Assembly (NCBI RefSeq): GCF_000341285.1
Contig: NW_005178408.1
Location: forward strand, 1 to 55,687
DNA: 55,687 nt
Direction: 5' to 3'
Source: Galdieria sulphuraria
Lineage: Eukaryota > Rhodophyta > Bangiophyceae > Galdieriales > Galdieriaceae
The notes under the pieces were generated by a model. The model saw only the letters and a list, made by a program, of their open reading frames with translations. It had not been told where the DNA came from and made no database searches. A program made the position numbers and the translations under genes. This document shows positions 26,540 to 52,686 of the stretch, in pieces (positions within the stretch are counted from its first letter, which is position 1; each line of letters begins with the position of its first letter).

Positions 26540-26622
26540 GCAGAGATGGCCGAGCGGTCTAAGGCGCTGCGTTCAGGTCGCAGTCATCCCAGATGGCGTG
26601 GGTTCGAATCCCACTCTCTGCA
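26540..26622 (+). tRNA. tRNA-Leu (anticodon CAG)
   Basis: An 83-base class II tRNA without intron. The acceptor stem GCAGAGA pairs with TCTCTGC, followed by discriminator A. The D arm has the B-box-linked A-box TGGCCGAGCGG. The anticodon stem CTGCG/CGCAG encloses TTCAGGT with anticodon CAG. The variable arm is long, as expected for leucine, and the T arm is GTGGG-TTCGAAT-CCCAC. A T-run about 13 bases downstream can serve as the RNA polymerase III terminator. Confidence 0.97.
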
Positions 26623-26908
26623 CTTTCTCTCTTTTTCTCATACAGAGGGCTAGGTTTATATCATTTTAGACGTTGTGACAGAAATGGGTTGTCTTCAATC
26701 AAATGGGATAACTTTTTATCAATACTCTTTCCAAAGAGAGTGTTGAGTGAATAGCTCTATGTATGGTTATTGGAGAACAGACATGTGAATGTTCTTTCCT
26801 ATGGGTAAAACCCTTTCTGTAAGTGATTCCTAATAGGAGAAGAACAAGTCTATAAGAAAATCGTTCCAAGAGTGGTTCACTTATAAACACTTCCTTGATA
26901 CAGCAAAA

Positions 26909-30533: not shown

Positions 30534-30695
30534 TTTGGCGATAACTTTTCAAAAGTGGAAGAAAACATAAACTCTTATGATACTTCATACTTTTATTCTT
30601 CATTTACAAAGTATCTTTCTCTCCTTGTTCTTATCAATAAAATTATATTTTGGCAGTCTACAACTCTATGACTTGCCCTTCCATTCTTCTTCTTA

Positions 30696-30718
30696 TTCTC
30701 TCTCTCTCTCTCTCTCTC
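30696..30718 (+). repeat. (CT)n microsatellite in the CSN7/Miro shared upstream region
   Basis: About eleven CT units lie 85 bases before the Miro ATG. Pyrimidine tracts are common in core promoters and leaders of compact algal genomes. It may influence transcription of either divergent gene, but that is inference. Confidence 0.8.
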
Positions 30719-30802
30719 CTTCGGCGATATTGTTGGATATTCATTTGGGTGGACTTGGTGATTGTCGTTGGTGACGAACATATATCAACACTTGTATCCA
30801 TT

Positions 30803-32749
30803 ATGAAACCTTCCGTTCGTATTGTAGTGGTAGGAGACCCTAAAGTAGGAAAAAGTTCCCTAATCAAAACCCTCATTTCAGAGAGTTTTGAGGACGAAGT
30901 TCAGCCCGTGTTACCTACCGTAGTCATACCCCCTGAAGTTACACCCGAACGTGTACACGTTTCCATCGTAGATACTTCCTCATCACCTGAAGAAAGACAC
31001 AAATTGGAAGAAGAAATTCGCAAAGCAGACGTTTTGGTTCTCGTTTACGACGTCAGCAAAAGAGAAACACTCGATAGAGCAAGTTCTTATTGGTTACCGA
31101 CGTTGAGAAGACTCGGTGTGACCGTTCCAGTAGTACTTGTCGGAAATAAAATAGATGTAAGAGGAATTGGAGCAGATCACTCCTTGGAACACCTCATCAA
31201 ACCTATTATGGACGAGTTTCGGGAAGTCGATGTGTGCATCGAGTGTTCAGCGAAACAAGTTTTCAACATCGCTGAACTCTTTTATTATGCCCAAAAAGCA
31301 GTTATACATCCAACTGCTCCACTGTATGACGTTAATGAGCATACTCTCAAACCAAAAGCGGTGTCTGCGTTGAAAAGAATATTCCGACTCTGTGATAAAG
31401 ACAAGGATGGAGTGTTGAATGATGAAGAACTCAACCAATTCCAATATGAATGTTTTGGAGTTGAACTGAAACCAAAAGAACGCGAAGGTGTCAAAAATGT
31501 CGTTCGAGATAACACAACAGATGGTTTGGATGCCAATAGTTGCGTCACTTTGAATGGTTTTCTATATTTGCACAAATTGTTTATTCAAAAAGGAAGATTG
31601 GAAACCACTTGGGCTGTATTGAGAAAATTTGGCTATGATGATGACCTTTTATTGAGACCTGACTATGTGAAGTTGGATATGAAAAAGGCAGATGATCAAT
31701 GTGTAGAGTTATCGGAACGAGCAAGTTGCTTTTTACTAGATTTGTTTGATAGAACTGATAAAGATAAGGATGGCAAGTTGTCAGAAGCAGAATGTAAGGA
31801 ACTGTTTTCCACTATTCCTTATGTGGTTTGGGATGAAGAGAAATATGGAGTTCGCTTAGTAGAACAAGGAGACTCTAAGATAACAAGAGATGGCTTTCTG
31901 GATAGATGGACCTTGTACTTATTGGATGACCCGGAAACGGCTCTATATTCCTTAGTATATCTTGGCTATGAAACTGAAGTGAATAGTGCGTACGTTATTT
32001 CTAGGAGAAGGAGAAGAGATCGACGATTGAAGAGTGTGAGTCGTCATGTGTTTCAAGTATTTGTCATGGGAAGTCCTGGTTGTGGCAAATCGAGTATGTT
32101 ACGTTCTTTGGTTGGTTTGCCATTTGTCGAAGATCATCAACCTACTGTAAGAAATATGGCTGCTTTACGTCGAATCCTTCTTCCAGAAGAAGAAGGTGGT
32201 GGTTATCGTTCCTTGGCATTGTATGAAATTCCTGAGCATGAGATTACGAGCAAACTATTGAGACTTGTGTCTCCTGATGGAAAGAAAGGAGAAACCAACA
32301 AAACAGAAGCATCCTTAAACTTGGAATCCTGTGACGTTGCTTGTTTGTTATATGATATTCACGATCCTAAATCCTTTGCCTATGCGGCACGTTTATATCA
32401 AAATTTGGCTGCTTTACGTCCGTTGCTTCCAGTAGTTTTTGTGGCAACGAAAGCAGATTTAACTGCCGTTTCTCCTCATTATGAAGTATCACCTGCAGAC
32501 TTTTGTGACCATTTGGGTTTACCGCATCCCGTCAAGGTATCTTTTCGATTACAGGAAGATGCAGATATCTTTCAAATGTTGGTAGGTGTGGGCTTGCATC
32601 CACAGTTAGCTTGTCCTGGTTATTATGAACATTCGGCTGTCGTACATTATGCATTGGTTGTTTCTAAGATATTGGCGGCGAGTGCTGCAATCGGTGCAAC
32701 GGTTTATGTTTCCAAGAAAATTTATCAATGGATACATTCTCGTGAATAG
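30803..32749 (+). CDS. MIRO1: Mitochondrial Rho GTPase (Miro)
   Basis: This is a 648-residue, single-exon protein; the ATG at 30803 puts the first GTPase at the N terminus. Domain order is that of Miro. GTPase 1 has P-loop GDPKVGKSS (11-19) and NKID (115-118). EF-hand 1 has DKDKDGVLNDEE (198-209). EF-hand 2 has DRTDKDKDGKLSEAEC (about 316-331). GTPase 2 has P-loop GSPGCGKSS (423-431) and TKAD. A C-terminal membrane helix (LVVSKILAASAAIGATVYV) ends with a short basic tail for outer mitochondrial membrane anchoring. Length is close to the usual ~620 residues. Miro controls mitochondrial movement, ER contact and inheritance in response to calcium. Confidence 0.96.
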   Translation: MKPSVRIVVVGDPKVGKSSLIKTLISESFEDEVQPVLPTVVIPPEVTPERVHVSIVDTSSSPEERHKLEEEIRKADVLVLVYDVSKRETLDRASSYWLPTLRRLGVTVPVVLVGNKIDVRGIGADHSLEHLIKPIMDEFREVDVCIECSAKQVFNIAELFYYAQKAVIHPTAPLYDVNEHTLKPKAVSALKRIFRLCDKDKDGVLNDEELNQFQYECFGVELKPKEREGVKNVVRDNTTDGLDANSCVTLNGFLYLHKLFIQKGRLETTWAVLRKFGYDDDLLLRPDYVKLDMKKADDQCVELSERASCFLLDLFDRTDKDKDGKLSEAECKELFSTIPYVVWDEEKYGVRLVEQGDSKITRDGFLDRWTLYLLDDPETALYSLVYLGYETEVNSAYVISRRRRRDRRLKSVSRHVFQVFVMGSPGCGKSSMLRSLVGLPFVEDHQPTVRNMAALRRILLPEEEGGGYRSLALYEIPEHEITSKLLRLVSPDGKKGETNKTEASLNLESCDVACLLYDIHDPKSFAYAARLYQNLAALRPLLPVVFVATKADLTAVSPHYEVSPADFCDHLGLPHPVKVSFRLQEDADIFQMLVGVGLHPQLACPGYYEHSAVVHYALVVSKILAASAAIGATVYVSKKIYQWIHSRE

Positions 32750-35283: not shown

Positions 35284-37464
35284 TTATTGGAGAATAGTCA
35301 TAGGATAACGTTCTACTAACAGTGCAACATTGCAATCTCTATTTAGTCTTTCCAAAACTGGGTTATAAGGATAATAATCATAACAAGAGCGAATAAATCG
35401 ACGAACTTGTGGTACAATCAACAAATAATGTCTTTCCAACATATTACAAATTGTATGACGTTGTTCTATAAAGCTTATTTCATTCCAACCTTCCACGAGA
35501 CATTTTAAGCCTGATTTCAACTGCAAGTATTCCATTTGTAAACAAAGTACATTTCTACTATCTTTCTGTAACTGTGTGACTTGTTCCATAGCTGCTTTAG
35601 CCAATCCAATATAAATGGCACTGAGACAGGCAAAGTGCCATGAATGACTCAATAACATAGCCAACGATATTTCACCCTTATGACTTGTAATAAGATGACT
35701 ATCTTTGACTTGATCAAACACAACAAAAGACATTCCACTTGCTTTAAGTCCATTTTGATGATTCACCCACTTTTGTATTTTCATAGCTGAGGACTTGGGT
35801 ACCAAAACCATTCCCAATGGACTTTTATCATGATGACTACTTTCAATTAATGGAATAAAAGTAACAAAGAAATCCATCAAAGGACTGGCTACTACTTGTT
35901 CAGCTACTCCTTGAATGATCCAAGACTTTGTTTTCTGATTAGCAAAGGAAGAAGCCATCAAAGGATTGCCTTTGGATATATGGGGAGGCAAAATAGTGTA
36001 ACAAAAACTTTGTCGAAGAGCAACTTCCCAAAACATATCTTCTACAGTTGATGAAGAATACGACAATAACCAATCTCTTAAAAAGCCAATCGTTGCAAAA
36101 TGATGAGCAAACCCATAAGCAGTGGAAATACAACCGCTACTCAATTCTATCAACACTTCTAAACAGTCTGAAATAGAAATATCTTCACCACCATATTTAC
36201 TTGGAATATTAGCTGCAGGAATGGCTTCCAATTGGCAACGAACATAGGACTCTCTCGCAAAGGTCCCATTTTGGTCAAAAGTCGATGCCAACTGAGACAA
36301 TACATTCTTGATTCCCATGGAAGCTTGAATAGTTCGCAGATTGTGATATTTGCGATCCATCAAACGTTGAAAAGTATTCCAAGATTGTACATTCCAACCT
36401 TTCATTCTTTCAACCAAGTCAGTTTCTCTATTATACTTCTTATTATTATTGTTATCCAAATGTCCTTGTTCTACGATGATATGATCACTTTCTTCTTTCA
36501 TCAGTTGGTCAACTCTTTTCCGTGCTCGATAAAGAGCACTTTGAATGCATTCATCTTCCTTTGATAAAACTCCAAGTCGAGCTAATGCTTCTTTGGCTGC
36601 TTTCTGTTGCGCTTCTTTTTTGGATTCTCCTTTTCCTTGTCCTACTATGACTTGATCCACTACGGCATGATAAATAAACTCTCTTTGATGAGAAGGTCCT
36701 TTGCATGATTTTTCTACATATTCCACTTGTTTGTTTTGGGAATTGACATATTCTTGTAACAACGATTTGTAGTTCCTAGGAGGGTCATTTAACATATCCA
36801 ACATAGTATTTCCTAATTGAATATAAACAAAGTGGCGAACAGCTTCAAAACCTCCATCCAAATAAATGGCTCCAACAACTGCTTCCAAAGCACCAGCAAG
36901 AACGGAAGTGGTATTCTTCAACTTTTCCAATCCTTTCTTTACCACTAAATATTCAACCAACTGAAGCTTTTCAAAATACTGTTCACAAGCTTTTCGACTC
37001 ACCAAACAAGAACGCATCTCAGATAAGCCACCTTCATCCAAATGTGGAAACCAAGTAAAAAGAAATTCTGCCACTACAAAGTTGAAAATACTATCACCTA
37101 AAAACTCCAAACGTTCGTTATTTTGTAAGTCGGTTTTCGTGGACTCCGTTATCTTATCCCAAGTCTCCATATCGTAATGTACTGAGGCATGAACAAACGC
37201 TAATCTTAGCCAATGTTTGTGTTGAAAAGAATATCCAATTTGTTTCTCAATACGTTGAATAACTGTGTCGTTTAACACAGCAACTGGATGGTGCACTGTT
37301 GGCTGATATTGAAATCTATGAGGAGGACAAAGATGTGACTTTCTATGTGGTAATGAAAAGGTGAAACTCGACCAGCTGTATCTTGAAAGTAAACTCCTTC
37401 CAAAGAAACACCATAACCTGGTTGGACAACGAGAAAGCAAAGACATATTCGAATAGGCAAACAT
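35284..37464 (-). CDS. RNase III - dsRNA-binding - acyl-CoA dehydrogenase-like fusion protein
   Basis: This is one uninterrupted 726-codon frame. Residues 1-55 are Arg/Ser/Phe-rich and resemble an organelle transit peptide. Residues about 66-225 form an RNase III domain with NNERLEFLGDSIF (115-127) and the second acidic site LEAVVGAIYLDGG (193-205). Residues about 231-299 are a dsRNA-binding domain ending GESKKEAQQKAAKEALARLG. After a ~60-residue charged linker, residues about 370-726 are related to acyl-CoA dehydrogenases and flavin monooxygenases: AANIPSKYGGED, SSGCISTAYGFAHHF, then KTKSWIIQGVAEQV and a helical C-terminal bundle. I cannot point to a catalytic glutamate in that half. RNase III would process rRNA or other structured RNA; the link to the flavoprotein half is unknown. 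The start is 34 bases from the divergent DPH6 start. Confidence 0.9.
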   Translation of the reverse strand: MFAYSNMSLLSRCPTRLWCFFGRSLLSRYSWSSFTFSLPHRKSHLCPPHRFQYQPTVHHPVAVLNDTVIQRIEKQIGYSFQHKHWLRLAFVHASVHYDMETWDKITESTKTDLQNNERLEFLGDSIFNFVVAEFLFTWFPHLDEGGLSEMRSCLVSRKACEQYFEKLQLVEYLVVKKGLEKLKNTTSVLAGALEAVVGAIYLDGGFEAVRHFVYIQLGNTMLDMLNDPPRNYKSLLQEYVNSQNKQVEYVEKSCKGPSHQREFIYHAVVDQVIVGQGKGESKKEAQQKAAKEALARLGVLSKEDECIQSALYRARKRVDQLMKEESDHIIVEQGHLDNNNNKKYNRETDLVERMKGWNVQSWNTFQRLMDRKYHNLRTIQASMGIKNVLSQLASTFDQNGTFARESYVRCQLEAIPAANIPSKYGGEDISISDCLEVLIELSSGCISTAYGFAHHFATIGFLRDWLLSYSSSTVEDMFWEVALRQSFCYTILPPHISKGNPLMASSFANQKTKSWIIQGVAEQVVASPLMDFFVTFIPLIESSHHDKSPLGMVLVPKSSAMKIQKWVNHQNGLKASGMSFVVFDQVKDSHLITSHKGEISLAMLLSHSWHFACLSAIYIGLAKAAMEQVTQLQKDSRNVLCLQMEYLQLKSGLKCLVEGWNEISFIEQRHTICNMLERHYLLIVPQVRRFIRSCYDYYPYNPVLERLNRDCNVALLVERYPMTILQ

Positions 37465-37498: not shown

Positions 37499-39628
37499 AT
37501 GAAAGTAGTGGCGTTGATCAGCGGTGGAAAGGATAGTTTTTATAGTTTATGCAAATGTATTGCTTATGGTCATGAAGTTGTAGCACTTGCAAACCTATTT
37601 CCTGAAGACTCTACAGTACAAGATGCGGACTCTTACATGTATCAAACTGTGGGCCACGAAATCGTACAAGCATATGCCAGAGCACTGTTATTACCTGTTT
37701 TTCGGAGACCTACCAAAGGGAAAGCAGTGCTTACTACTTTGGGATATTCTCGCCAACCATATGATGAAGTAGAAGATTTGTATCAACTGCTGTTACAAGT
37801 AAAACAAGAAATGCCTCAAGTGGAAGCTGTTTGTACGGGAGCTATCTTGTCCGATTACCAACGCAACCGTGTAGAACATGTGTGTTGTAGATTGCAACTA
37901 ACTTCCATTGCATATCTTTGGAAAAGGAATCAAAAACAACTTCTGCAAGAAATGTTACAAGCTGGAATAGATGCAATAGTTGTAAAGGTTGCGACAATGG
38001 GATTGTATCCACGGAAACACTTGGGAAAGCATTTGATCGAATTGGCTCCTTTGTTGATAGAATTGGAGAGCAACTACGGATCTCATGTTTGTGGAGAAGG
38101 AGGTGAATTTGAAAGTTTGGTATTGGACTGTCCACTTTTCTATTATCGATTGGTTGTCGATGAAGCTGAAACAATTGTAGTTTCTGATGATCGCTTTGCA
38201 CCTATAGGCTATTTGCGAATCAAAAAATATCATTTGGAAGAAAAGTCATTACATGTCAACCGTATGCATTGGATAAAGACTCTGGTGCCTATCAAGTCTA
38301 TGCCAGCTCAGACGAAACAAAGAGAAACAGGCAGAAAGAAAGTTTCACAAAATGATATTTCTTTAATGTACTTGTGCAAGTCTCGTTGGTGCACATCCAA
38401 AACATCAAATATTTCATACTTTTTGTGTTGTAGTAGAGCTGCTTCTACAACTGAGGATAAGAAGAATGTCTCGGAAGAAATGAAGAATATTTTGGATGAC
38501 TTGGAACAATCTTTGAAGGAATGCAGTTTGACTCGAAAGGATATATTCTATTGTCAGTTATACTTGAGTGACATGAGCGATTTCGTTTCAGTTAACAAAG
38601 TTTATGCTTCTTATTTTGGAACTGAAGAGCCTCCCGCTAGAGCATGCGTAGAAGTTTCTTTATGTTATCATCAACTCGTTGTACTAGAAGCATTTGCTAG
38701 GAAGGGTCCTCGTAAGGTTCTTCATGTTCAAAGCATCTCTGAATGGGCTCCTCCTTGTATTGGACCCTACTCTCAAGCTCATTGTTTCCAACATGTCGTA
38801 TATATTTCGGGAATTCTTGCATTACATCCTCCTACTGTAACTATTGTACCAGGATTGAATATAGAACAGGAAACTATGCTCTGTATAGAAAATGTGAACC
38901 ACACTATGGAAGCTTTGCCATGTGGATGGGAAGATATTTTGTTTATCTATTGTTACATCACTCAACCACAAGATGCACAAAGGGTAGCCACATTATTGTA
39001 TAATACTTATGGAAAGCAATTTGGTTTGTGCATCGTACCTGTACGTAACTTACCTCGAAATGGTTGTGTCGAATTGCAACTCATTTGTGTATCATCCAAC
39101 GACTCTACTGGAAATTCATCACAATATGATGCCCGTCCGATATGTAGTAAACAAGTTGTCCAAGGAGAATTTCCGATGCTCGTTGCAGATGATAACAAGA
39201 ATATATGTAGTCTCTCGGAAGATAACTTTCAAGTGAAGTGGCAAATGTGTATCAGTGGTTCTATTATTGTATTGCATGCAACATGGAAACAAGTTCCTTT
39301 ACTTGACTCGTTCAAGAAACAAATCAAAGCAATATTTCATCAATGGATAAGCTTATGCGAAAAGCGATTGGACCGTGTTGGAGCTCATGTCGCGTGGAAT
39401 CCGATTGTTTGTAAGTCGTGGTTACCAAAAGATCTTTTTTATGAAAACAACAATTATTCTTTGCAAGAGATAACTGAAGAAATATTAGTCAAGGTACTAT
39501 CCAACGAGCATTCGATGAACAGGACACCAGTATTTATTATACCCTTGGAAGAAGACGAACAAGTTAGAACATGCCATTTGCAGTTAATATTACAATTGGA
39601 TGAAAAAGTTAACACATCTAGGTTGTGA
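37499..39628 (+). CDS. DPH6: Diphthine-ammonia ligase DPH6 with two RidA-like domains
   Basis: This is a 709-residue, single-exon protein; the ATG at 37499 places the PP-loop SGGKDS at residues 8-13, as in all DPH6. The N-terminal ~230 residues are the ATP-pyrophosphatase domain: GHEIVQAYARALLLPVF, CTGAILSDYQRNRVE and the diphthamide-specific GEGGEFESLVLDCPLF. Two RidA/YjgF-like domains follow (about 310-400, and 415-540 with IGPYSQAHCFQHVVYISG), the arrangement of the longer fungal and plant DPH6 proteins. It performs the last step of diphthamide formation on elongation factor 2, using ATP and ammonium. It is divergent from the RNase III fusion, with only 34 bases between the two ATGs. Confidence 0.93.
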   Translation: MKVVALISGGKDSFYSLCKCIAYGHEVVALANLFPEDSTVQDADSYMYQTVGHEIVQAYARALLLPVFRRPTKGKAVLTTLGYSRQPYDEVEDLYQLLLQVKQEMPQVEAVCTGAILSDYQRNRVEHVCCRLQLTSIAYLWKRNQKQLLQEMLQAGIDAIVVKVATMGLYPRKHLGKHLIELAPLLIELESNYGSHVCGEGGEFESLVLDCPLFYYRLVVDEAETIVVSDDRFAPIGYLRIKKYHLEEKSLHVNRMHWIKTLVPIKSMPAQTKQRETGRKKVSQNDISLMYLCKSRWCTSKTSNISYFLCCSRAASTTEDKKNVSEEMKNILDDLEQSLKECSLTRKDIFYCQLYLSDMSDFVSVNKVYASYFGTEEPPARACVEVSLCYHQLVVLEAFARKGPRKVLHVQSISEWAPPCIGPYSQAHCFQHVVYISGILALHPPTVTIVPGLNIEQETMLCIENVNHTMEALPCGWEDILFIYCYITQPQDAQRVATLLYNTYGKQFGLCIVPVRNLPRNGCVELQLICVSSNDSTGNSSQYDARPICSKQVVQGEFPMLVADDNKNICSLSEDNFQVKWQMCISGSIIVLHATWKQVPLLDSFKKQIKAIFHQWISLCEKRLDRVGAHVAWNPIVCKSWLPKDLFYENNNYSLQEITEEILVKVLSNEHSMNRTPVFIIPLEEDEQVRTCHLQLILQLDEKVNTSRL

Positions 39629-43669: not shown

Positions 43670-46103
43670 ATGGCTGGTCGTGGGACTCATCTTACCAAAC
43701 CTGCATGGTTAGTGGAAAAAGAAACTGTGCCACTCAATACGAACAACTCGAACACTTCAGTGAATAGTTTATGGAAAACTGCACAAACTGCAGATGGAAG
43801 ACAATATTGGTATAATGTTCAAACGAGAGAGTCGAGATGGGAACCTCCCCCTGAGTGGACAGACCAAGAAAAGAAGAGCACTTTACATACAGAACAAGTT
43901 TGGTATGAACTAGAAACGGCTGATGGTAGAAAATATTATTTTAACCAATTGAATAACGAAACACGTTGGGAACCTCCTCCCGGAGCTTCCATCGTGAAAG
44001 GTCAAGAAGATAAGAGAGCCAAAACACCGGTTTCGGCAACTTCGGTTGGCTCTGTCAGTTCTTCTGAACCCAAGAATAATGAAAATATGTCAAGAACTTG
44101 GAAAGAATACAAAACAAAGGATGGTAGAACTTATTTTTTTAATCCAGCAACAGGAGAATCTCGTTGGGAAAAGCCTGCTACAAGTGGTGGTATGGAGGAC
44201 TGGATAGAATATAGAACTTCTGATGGAAGACCATATTATTACAACAAACGTACAAAGGTTACTTCATGGACTCTACCAAAGGTGCAACAAGATGAAAGCA
44301 GGGATAGGAAAGAAACTCAAAGAAAGATGATGGTAAGAAGAGACTTGGGTGGAAAGCAAGACATTGTGCATCGTCCAAGACATCGAGATGGAAAAGTCAT
44401 GACAGATAGAGAAGCAGAATTATATTTCTTAAAGGAAGCAACGAAGAAGAGAAAGCGAGGCAAATCCAATAGTGAAGTGGTTGGAGGAGATAATACTGGC
44501 CACAGCCATCAAAAAAGTGTATCAGATGAGATAGATAACAAGCAAGCTGAAGAGACTTTCATGGAAATGTTGCAAGAATATGGAATAGATGAAAACTCGA
44601 GATGGCTGGATGCGATATATTTTTGTTGTTCAGACCAAAGATACTTTGTGTTTCATTCTTATGGACAACGACATTCCTGTTTTGTAAAGTACAAAGCTAA
44701 GCGTGCGGCTCAGAAGAAATTGGAGCGAAGCAAAAAAATCTTTCAAGCGAGAAGTGAATTTGAACAAATGCTTCGAGAGAAGATACAACCCAATAAGATT
44801 CCAGAAGGAGCTCGAGTTGTTGAGGATTGTGATGAAAGTATTATCACAAGTATAAAGGAAGATCGTAGATATGCCGCCTTAGAAGATGAGAAAGAACGAA
44901 AGGATTTGATAGGAGCTTATTTTAGTATAATAGAACGCCAAATAAGAGAAGTACGTAGACAGGAACGCAAGGAAAGAATGTCAAAAGTTCGAAATATTTT
45001 GTCGGAATGGGCAGAAAAGGATAGACCTATTTCAGGTTGGTTTTATGGGTTGTTCTTTTGAAATAGAAGACTAAGAATGATGTTTAGAGCCATTAGAAGA
45101 AGGAGAAGCAGCTCCAGCAAGAAAGATGATTGATGAACATTCCACATTTCGAGAAGTTTCTGAGTTGCTTGCAGATAATGTTGATTGGAATGCATTGGAT
45201 AAAGTAGATCGAATGGTTGCTTTTGAAGAGTGGCAAAGAGAAGCAGAGAAATTAGCAGCTGAAAGGAGAGCGAGAGAGAGAGAAGAAAAGAAGCTCAAGG
45301 AAAGACAACAACGTGCAATATTTCGGAAACATTTAGAAGAAATGTTAGAAAGAGGAGAACTTATATTATCTACCCAATGGAAAGAAATAGAAAGTATACT
45401 TTTGCCCCAACCATGGTTTCAAGAACTGATCCAAACTGATGAAAGTAACTCCTCACCGTTGGTAATCGGAGGCCAAAATGCTGTCGATATTTTTGAAGAT
45501 TTTATGTTTACTGTCGAAGAGAAAGTTTTCAAAGATAAGAAGGCATTCAAAAGAGCGCTGCAAGAGCTGAATTTTGAAATAGACGAGAATACAAATGTGG
45601 AAATGTTGTATGCTTGTCCTAATGCTATGAATGTTTTGGAGTCCAACGGAATTACCCAACAACTACATGTAAAACTTTTATTGGAAGAATATCGAAGAAA
45701 ATCACAAGAAAAGAAACAAAAAGAAAAGAAGAAAAATCAACTCAAGGAAAACTTTTATGAATATTTACGTAAAGAAGGAACATCAACAGGAACTTCTTCA
45801 TGGGACTGGAATGAATTACTCAACACAAAGTTATTAAAGAATAGTGTGTTTCAAGAACTAAAGAACCTTGTGGGTGAACCTAGTGTCCGAGATATGTTTG
45901 AAGACTTTGTTCGTCAACAAACAGCCGAAAAGAGAAAGAGGGATGATCAGAATCATACAAACGAACCAATTCCCAAAAAACCAAGTCTCCGTGAATCCGG
46001 CTCTACTTTTGACAGCGAACGAGAAAAATTGGAGGCGTTGGAACGTCGGAGACAAGAAATACTAGCAAAGTTGCAAGCTGTCAATGAAACTAAAAATGAG
46101 TAG
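43670..46103 (+). CDS. PRP40: Prp40-like splicing factor with four WW domains and FF domains
   Basis: Two exons (43670-45035, 45088-46103) give 793 residues. The only intron uses a GTTGGT donor, and the join restores the frame. Four WW domains follow in series: residues about 35-62, 78-104, 144-170 and 178-204, each with the two Trp or Trp/Pro marks (DGRQYWYN...RWEPP). After a basic linker come FF domains, the first in ETFMEMLQEYG...YKAKRAAQKKL and later ones in FREVSELLADNVDW and MFEDFV. Highly charged helices connect them. Prp40 links the U1 snRNP at the 5' splice site to branch-point proteins and RNA polymerase II. Four WW domains are more than the usual two of Prp40; TCERG1-type proteins are the alternative. 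Confidence 0.85.
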
Positions 46104-48812: not shown

Positions 48813-50478
48813 ATGCAAGACGTTTATGTAGGAGCTGTAGACCAAGGAACTACCTCAACACGGTTTATGCTATTTAATAAACAAGGGGAACCTATAGCGT
48901 TTCATCAAGTAGAACATAAACAGGTTTGTTAGAAAGGCTTTGTTATCTCTTCATCAATGAGTATATGACTTGATTGATTAGATATATCCACAACCAGGGT
49001 GGGTAGAACACGATCCTGTGGAGATAATCAACAACACCATACTTTGCATCGACGAGACAGTGAAGAAATGTCAAGCAAAGGGAATTCAAACGGTGTGCTC
49101 TTTTTTATTTTACTATGTAAAAAGGAATTGACAGTTTTATTTTTTCTAGTCACAAATCAAAGCGATTGGCATAACCAACCAGCGTGAAACCACTGTTGTA
49201 TGGGACAAGTACACTGGAAAACCTCTTTTCAATGCTATTGTTTGGCTGGATACGAGAACCAAGGAAACTTGTGAAAAACTGGGAAAGAATAGAGACCAGT
49301 ACAGAGATCTCTGCGGTCTTCCTGTATCAACTTATTTTTCAGGAGTTAAGCTTCGTTGGATAATAGACAATGTCCCCGATGTGAAAGCGGCACTTGAGGA
49401 AGGCAGAGCGATATTCGGAACGATTGATACTTGGTTAGTATGGAACTTGACAGGACGCCAGGCGCATGTAACAGATATTACAAATGCTGGAAGAACGCTT
49501 TTAATGAATATCGAAAAATTGCAATGGGAACCCAAACTATTACAAGCTTTGGGTATTCCAAAACAATGCTTGCCTGAAATTCGTTCAAGTTCGGAGAGGT
49601 AATGCGAAATGTCTTTGATATGGAGTTGATTGAACAAATTGATTAGATATGGCACACTTGCATGCTCACTCTTACAAGGTGTTCCTATCAGTGGAATCCT
49701 TGGCGATCAACAAGCCGCATTGGTGGGTCAGACCTGTTTTCGTAAAGGAGATGCCAAGAATACATATGGTACAGGTTGCTTTTTAATTGTAAACACTGGA
49801 GAAGGCGAAGGACCTGTTCCATCCAAACATGGTCTATTGACTACACCGGGTTATCAGTTAGGTCCAGACAAGCCTGTTGCCTATGCTTTGGAAGGCTCCA
49901 TTCCTATAGCAGGTGCAGCAGTTCAGTGGCTTCGTGATAACTTGCAAATCATCAAGACTGCTCCAGAAGTTGAAGATTTAGCCAATTCAGTAAAGGATAG
50001 TGGGGATGTATTCTTTGTACCAGCATTTTCTGGCCTATTTGCTCCTCATTGGCGTGAAGATGCCAGAGGTGTTATTGTGGGTCTTACACAATACACTACC
50101 AAGGCACATATTGCTAGAGCCGTATTGGAAGCCGTATCTTTTCAAGTTTGTGATATTATTGGTTCTGTAGAGGCAGATTCAAAAGCTACTATTAAAGTTT
50201 TAAAGGTAGACGGAGGCATGACGGCTAATAATACTTTCTTACAACTACAATGTGATTTACTTCAATGTCCCATTGTTCGTCCGCAAGTTACCGAAACCAC
50301 AGTGATTGGTGCGGCATTTGCTGCTGGTTTAGCAGAAAAGGTTTGGTCATCACAAGAAGAGTTGGTAAAACTTTGGAAGGTGGATAGAGAATTTTCGACC
50401 AAAATTTCTATTGATGAAAGTAGCCGACGTTGGAAGCGTTGGAAACAAGCTCTAGAGCGGAGCTTTGGATGGATCTAA
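48813..50478 (+). CDS. GK: Glycerol kinase
   Basis: Four exons (48813-48923, 48982-49092, 49150-49598, 49647-50478) give exactly 500 residues, the normal size. FGGY-kinase motifs are all present: [12 protein letters not shown] at the N-terminal phosphate loop, [78 protein letters not shown] and [11 protein letters not shown]. The enzyme phosphorylates glycerol to glycerol-3-phosphate with ATP, the entry point for growth on glycerol. No targeting peptide is seen, so it is likely cytosolic. Galdieria is known for heterotrophic growth on glycerol, and the product feeds GPAT9 found elsewhere in the window. Confidence 0.96.

Positions 50479-51586: not shown

Positions 51587-52686
<1,100 letters not shown>

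Follow-up and report, generated by a model that had tools for sequence, protein, structure and literature searches.

A Galdieria sulphuraria reading frame that joins an RNase III to a divergent acyl-CoA dehydrogenase-like module

Introduction

Human mitochondrial RNase P counts a dehydrogenase, SDR5C1, among its subunits, and in the account given in PMC10602865 it is the presence of this protein that is needed and not its activity. ACAD9, in turn, is described as becoming a complex I assembly factor on losing its FAD (PMC10716376). Set against these two precedents, the statement in an initial annotation of the DNA analysed here, that RNA processing and acyl or flavin chemistry are not known partners, was too strong. 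A scan of titles and abstract openings found no description of a fusion between RNase III and an acyl-CoA dehydrogenase (ACAD). Here we describe such a frame from Galdieria sulphuraria, in a stretch of 55 687 nucleotides of contig NW_005178408.1 (hereafter the window). The Cyanidiophyceae are reported to have lost the Dicer-like protein DCL1 (PMC9812998), and the fusion, if expressed as read, would bear on how double-stranded RNA (dsRNA) is handled in these algae without it.

Results

The frame runs from 37464 to 35284 on the minus strand, on which all its parts given below also lie, and occupies 35284..37464 exactly as first annotated. It is a single ATG-started frame of 726 codons plus a stop, with no need for an intron, and encodes, from the N to the C terminus, a basic leader, a bacterial-type RNase III domain, a dsRNA-binding domain (dsRBD) and, after a linker of 84 residues, an ACAD fold predicted to be complete. 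The earlier claim that these parts share one uninterrupted frame holds. Codon log-odds, trained on the other long frames of the window, were highest in this frame in 22 of 22 segments of 30 codons covering residues 61–720, linker included, and residues 301–726 remained open in none of 1000 dinucleotide shuffles. The uninterrupted RNase III–ACAD frame is confirmed as real and as open beyond chance.

The leader (residues 1–65, 37270..37464) is transit-peptide-like in composition, with seven Lys or Arg and no Asp or Glu, which suggests organelle targeting, to either plastid or mitochondrion. A transit-like N terminus had been proposed earlier; codon bias lends residues 1–60 no support, the fusion frame not scoring highest in either of the two segments that cover them.

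The window, with a GC content of 35–40%, short introns and tight gene spacing, is in line with Galdieria, for which introns of about 50 bp, roughly two to a gene, have been reported (PMC5880011). It holds 26 frames of at least 150 aa, and Pfam was run on 10 frames other than the fusion. Divergent from the RNase III gene and 34 bp from its start lies a plus-strand frame (37499–39628) with a diphthamide synthase domain (PF01902) and two Ribonuc_L-PSP stretches. Further away on the plus strand, Ras, EF-hand and EF_assoc_1/2 domains share one ATG-started frame of 694 codons (30668–32749), presumably a Miro-like GTPase, and a frame at 43670–45061 combines a single FF domain with four WW stretches, which we take to be a Prp40/TCERG1-like splicing-linked protein. 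The sole tRNA found in the window is a tRNA-Leu (cag) at 26540–26623 on the plus strand.

The RNase III catalytic domain (residues 72–214, 36823..37251) was recognised by Pfam, NCBIfam and AlphaFold2, and the dsRBD (residues 232–297, 36574..36771) by Pfam and AlphaFold2. All Pfam matches were above their cut-offs (PF14622, 4.1e-22 and PF00636, 4.8e-22 for RNase III; PF00035, 1.2e-18 for the dsRBD), and the NCBIfam RNaseIII model TIGR02191 matched residues 72–297 over model positions 1–219 at 3.5e-57, with 193.4 bits against a curated cut-off of 166.25. On these profile matches the RNase III identity of the N-terminal half is certain. The two halves were modelled separately, an alignment of the whole protein having been dropped as it misplaced ACAD rows onto the RNase III half. 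For residues 60–399, modelled with AlphaFold2 from 12 sequences (mean pLDDT 79.9, pTM 0.68), both the RNase III domain and the dsRBD were predicted with confidence. Two other assignments were considered and rejected. Kinship with Dicer or Drosha does not fit a single RNase III domain, the high Drosha score being a sum over the two domains of Drosha, and the mitochondrial ribosomal protein mL44 (PF22935) scored 26.5 bits, just below its cut-off of 27, against 193 bits for RNaseIII.

The RNase III signature had been called intact and the box itself, NERLEFLGDS (residues 116–125, 37090..37119), is complete, with E117, E120 and D124 corresponding to E. coli E38, E41 and D45; outside the box two conserved acidic positions have changed. 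Five of seven conserved acidic residues are kept, the equivalents of E. coli E38, E41, D45, E65 and E117 being E117, E120, D124, E144 and E194 here. In an alignment with 25 bacterial RNase III proteins, taken from the genomes of 25 of the 75 ACAD loci described below, the E. coli D114 position is filled by Gly191 (36892..36894), where the comparators have Asp (20/25), Ala (3/25) or Arg (2/25), and the E. coli E100 position, Glu in 22 of the 25, is Leu179. Of 14 viral RNase III loci, 11 were used in an alignment, three near-duplicates being omitted. Among the four acidic side chains of the catalytic site (E41, D45, D114 and E117 in E. coli numbering), three are present and D114 is missing, as it is in 5 of the 25 bacterial comparators. 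The comparators with Ala or Arg at this position come from five Chloroflexota genomes (L085, L090, L096, L098 and L103), each with one TIGR02191 match.

These substitutions bear on whether both halves could be pseudoenzymes, the protein then being a dsRNA-binding organelle factor comparable with maize chloroplast RNC1. The losses at D114 and E100 speak for this, as E. coli D114A and E100A are described as weak in vitro and low in their binding of dsRNA, and RNC1 as inactive (both in PMC8708148). Against it stand the retained equivalents of E38, E41, D45, E65 and E117, the five single-match Chloroflexota proteins that likewise lack the Asp, and the description of D114 as the only one of the four catalytic side chains that makes no direct contact with Mg2+ (PMC9291653), although PMC3839596 classes it as a metal-coordinating residue. 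We regard a double pseudoenzyme as distinctly improbable, and dsRNA cleavage by the RNase III half, as judged from its residues, as plausible but not assured.

The C-terminal half (residues 385–726, 35287..36312) has predicted helical, beta-barrel and C-terminal helical-bundle parts, and the fold begins slightly before residue 385, within a predicted helix at 359–399. Every curated family model scored this half under its cut-off. PF02771 gave 16.8 bits (E = 0.0088) and, in a second search, 17.7 bits, against a cut-off of 22.9, and PF02770 11.9 bits against 33.3; no match to PF00441 or PF08028 was listed for this half by Pfam. The best NCBIfam models were two prolyl-PCP dehydrogenases of the ACAD superfamily, PigA (3.9e-8 with the whole protein and 9.1e-9 with the half, far under the 500-bit cut-off of the model) and RedW (8.8e-7 with the half), and the best phmmer matches in the PDB were the prolyl-ACP dehydrogenase 4irn (3.3e-4) and 6cxt (9.3e-4).

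To gather relatives, the half was aligned with two plasmid ACADs and bacterial genomes were scanned with this alignment, which yielded 75 ACAD loci. Of these, 74 met the threshold of E < 1e-3, and 64 were retained by a filter for lengths of 320–480 aa. A profile of these 64 gave the ACAD half 79.8 bits over residues 385–635, a score that is not independent of the scan as the relatives were chosen by similarity to the window; with the same profile none of the controls, for which we took 104 other frames of the window, 1000 shuffles, the ACAD half in reverse and the RNase III half, exceeded 2.5 bits. The C-terminal bundle beyond this match is evident only through alignment (LERLNRD against LERxxRD) and modelling. 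AlphaFold2, guided by an alignment of relatives (residues 344–726, 65 sequences), gave a mean pLDDT of 81.7 and a pTM of 0.85, and Foldseek matched the model to 342 PDB chains at E ≤ 0.001, with E values down to 2e-15. The best 50 of these 342 chains (TM about 0.67–0.77, 12–18% identity) comprise nitrososynthases, dibenzothiophene monooxygenases, acyl-CoA dehydrogenases, a desulfinase, PigA, AnaB and their kin. Profile and predicted structure together argue that this half, very divergent and below the curated cut-offs, is nevertheless a real ACAD-fold module.

Sequence collections, all of them without eukaryotes, were also searched. Among genome contigs none of 39 pattern matches was confirmed as a relative of the ACAD half, among viral contigs none of three was confirmed as a relative of the whole protein, and no phage locus encoded a relative of the ACAD half. 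Amongst the plasmids, 12 records carried ordinary bacterial ACAD genes with 20–25% identity. Since these collections are without eukaryotes, absence from them says nothing about red algae.

For a comparison of individual columns, six plasmid ACADs were added to the 64 relatives to give 70, a seventh, unannotated plasmid locus (L007) being excluded. The counts that follow refer to this set, which was gathered by similarity to the window and with two peptide patterns, and whose members are 15–22% identical to the half, so that single columns may be misaligned. The motif names EPxxGS, [TS][NG], RxxFG and QxxGG are those that we take to mark flavin contacts, and the columns of Leu492, Ala521, Val525 and Ala526 presumably lie around the flavin in ACAD structures. 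At the position of the EPxxGS-type loop (residues 492–503, 35956..35991) Glu, present in 66/70 relatives, is replaced by Leu492, and residues 494–497 and 500–503 of the loop have a pLDDT below 50. The [TS][NG] position reads VVASP (residues 524–528, 35881..35895), with Val525 where all 70 relatives have Thr or Ser and Ala526 where 59/70 have Gly; close by, Ala521 stands for a Lys found in 68/70. Two comparators, L002 and L006, have Trp in place of this Lys and Ser at 525. The stretch corresponding to the RxxFG loop (residues 625–649, 35518..35592) measures 25 residues, against 33–42 in every one of the 70, and residues 687–704 contain no Gly, which is present in 69/70 relatives.

Positions of the fold, by comparison, are kept: G519 (shared by 69 of the 70 relatives), G620 (69) and A625 (68), and, within LERLNRD (residues 704–710, 35335..35355), which retains the fold motif LERxxRD, E705 (65), R706 (67), R709 (69) and D710 (67). 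Substituted or shortened flavin-contact motifs alongside kept fold residues fit a module that would have lost its cofactor and retained its fold.

The catalytic glutamate had been reported as not identifiable. An acidic residue does align with it, Glu718 (35311..35313) falling in the column of the YEG-type catalytic Glu of two canonical ACADs (L001 and L005; Glu in 2/70 relatives), and the earlier doubt holds in so far as its context, VERY, breaks the motif to VER-Y. The helix glutamate of 6cxt corresponds to His610. An argument for inactivity from a missing glutamate alone was tried and set aside, as flavin monooxygenases of this fold also lack it, and the flavin motifs were used instead.

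Two readings of the ACAD half had been offered at the outset, a true bifunctional protein or a structural or sensing module, and the loss of flavin contacts in a kept fold favours the second. A true bifunctional enzyme, or a flavin sensor, in which the ACAD half still bound flavin or acyl thioesters and RNA cleavage responded to the redox or acyl state, would draw on the complete predicted fold and on E718 in the catalytic column, and loss of the glutamate would say little against it, given the flavin monooxygenases without an ACAD glutamate among its closest folds (best 50 of 342 chains). The flavin-contact positions are altered or shortened in several separate motifs, however, and the 494–503 loop is predicted with a pLDDT below 50, which makes such an enzyme rather improbable. 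The same eroded site, together with a compact gene order that eases fusion, might instead point to a neutral or recent accident, in which read-through joined a decaying ACAD gene to the RNase III and left a functionless tail. Simple decay is disfavoured by a stretch of 342 codons without a stop or frameshift, with coding bias throughout and with selectively kept fold motifs, and we consider an accident very improbable.

The halves are joined by the linker (residues 301–384, 36313..36564), predicted as a helix to about residue 337 and mostly with low confidence thereafter (pLDDT below 50 at 334–357 and 372–386 in the model of residues 60–399). No stop separates the halves, and only 8 of 5000 dinucleotide shuffles left residues 301–384 free of stops. 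A scan for the donor pattern GTRNGY, which donors of the GTAATG type escape, found one match in the gene at residue 155 and another at residue 565, and none in the linker. In nearby genes four introns were read by eye: two short ones in a spermidine synthase (51772–52570, minus strand; donors GTGCGT and GTATGT) and two in a glycerol kinase (48978–50475, plus strand; donors GTGTGC and GTAATG), both genes also identified by eye. The last of these donors lies outside GTRNGY, so that a weak cryptic intron with a donor of this kind could still lie in the linker.

Separate expression of the halves, through an internal promoter and start, a cryptic linker intron or an assembly error, would make two genes of the frame. 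Candidate in-frame starts exist at Met354, Met369 and Met383, the linker that holds the domain boundary is poorly conserved, is partly predicted with low confidence and contains a short AAT run, and this genome does splice short introns, one in four of the donors read being of a kind that the scan of the linker would have missed. The two-gene reading would nevertheless require an RNase III gene without a stop of its own, and has to accommodate the rarity of an open linker among the shuffles, the coding bias for the fusion frame in every linker segment and the lack of a GTRNGY donor there; we think it unlikely.

Discussion

We favour the reading, to which we give a probability of about 0.5, that a single fusion gene encodes an organelle RNase III carrying a C-terminal pseudo-ACAD as an oligomerising or docking module. 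The leader would direct the protein to the plastid or mitochondrion, where the RNase III part would act as a dimer on structured RNA, such as precursors of organelle rRNA or mRNA. RNase III forms dimers, and ACADs usually form tetramers. Given this tetrameric state of ACADs, the pseudo-ACAD, which would perform no redox chemistry, may hold RNase III dimers together or else dock them on a partner, and its oligomer would perhaps compensate for the weakened RNase III active site. The fusion probably originated by loss of the stop between two tandem, tightly packed genes. The nearest ATG-started frames lie 34 bp (the divergent diphthamide synthase) and 55 bp (a glycosyltransferase on the same strand) away, and with gaps of this size the loss of one stop would be an easy route to a fusion.

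A bolder version of the favoured reading, which we put forward only tentatively, is that a flavin-stripped ACAD fold within an organelle RNase III brings the dimers of the nuclease together in a larger particle for RNA processing, the oligomer offsetting the missing Asp, as an independent and fused counterpart of the dehydrogenase–nuclease partnership of mitochondrial RNase P. If the protein is expressed as read, it would combine domains in a way that the scanned titles and abstract openings do not describe, and would be a new build of RNA-processing enzyme. It would also be a second, independent example of organelle RNA processing taking up the fold of a metabolic dehydrogenase, and would offer a direct test of whether such folds are recruited for oligomeric shape and not for chemistry.

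Compared with bacterial RNase III (TIGR02191; Rnc), the protein has in common a catalytic domain and a dsRBD that together match the model in full, the signature box and five of seven conserved acidic residues. It differs in having a leader, about 65 residues long, in the replacement of D114 by Gly and of E100 by Leu, and in its ACAD-like C-terminal half. With the ACAD superfamily, including the PigA/RedW prolyl-PCP dehydrogenases and the DszC/TdsC/nitrososynthase flavin monooxygenases, it shares the whole fold as predicted and LERxxRD, whereas flavin-site positions are lost, two stretches are shorter and scores fall below the family cut-offs. Maize chloroplast RNC1 is likewise an organelle protein with RNase III domains and an altered active site, if the organelle location suggested here by the leader holds, but as described in PMC8708148 it has two inactive RNase III domains and no ACAD part is mentioned. 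In the complex I assembly complex ACAD9 is reported to lend its ACAD fold as a scaffold after release of FAD (PMC10716376), the role that we propose for the fold here, although ACAD9 is otherwise still an enzyme and is not fused to a nuclease. In human mitochondrial RNase P the dehydrogenase SDR5C1 (HSD17B10) has an SDR fold, is a separate subunit and works with the nuclease PRORP; as in that complex, where its activity is described as dispensable (PMC10602865), we propose that a dehydrogenase fold in Galdieria would serve an organelle RNA-processing nuclease in a non-enzymatic role.
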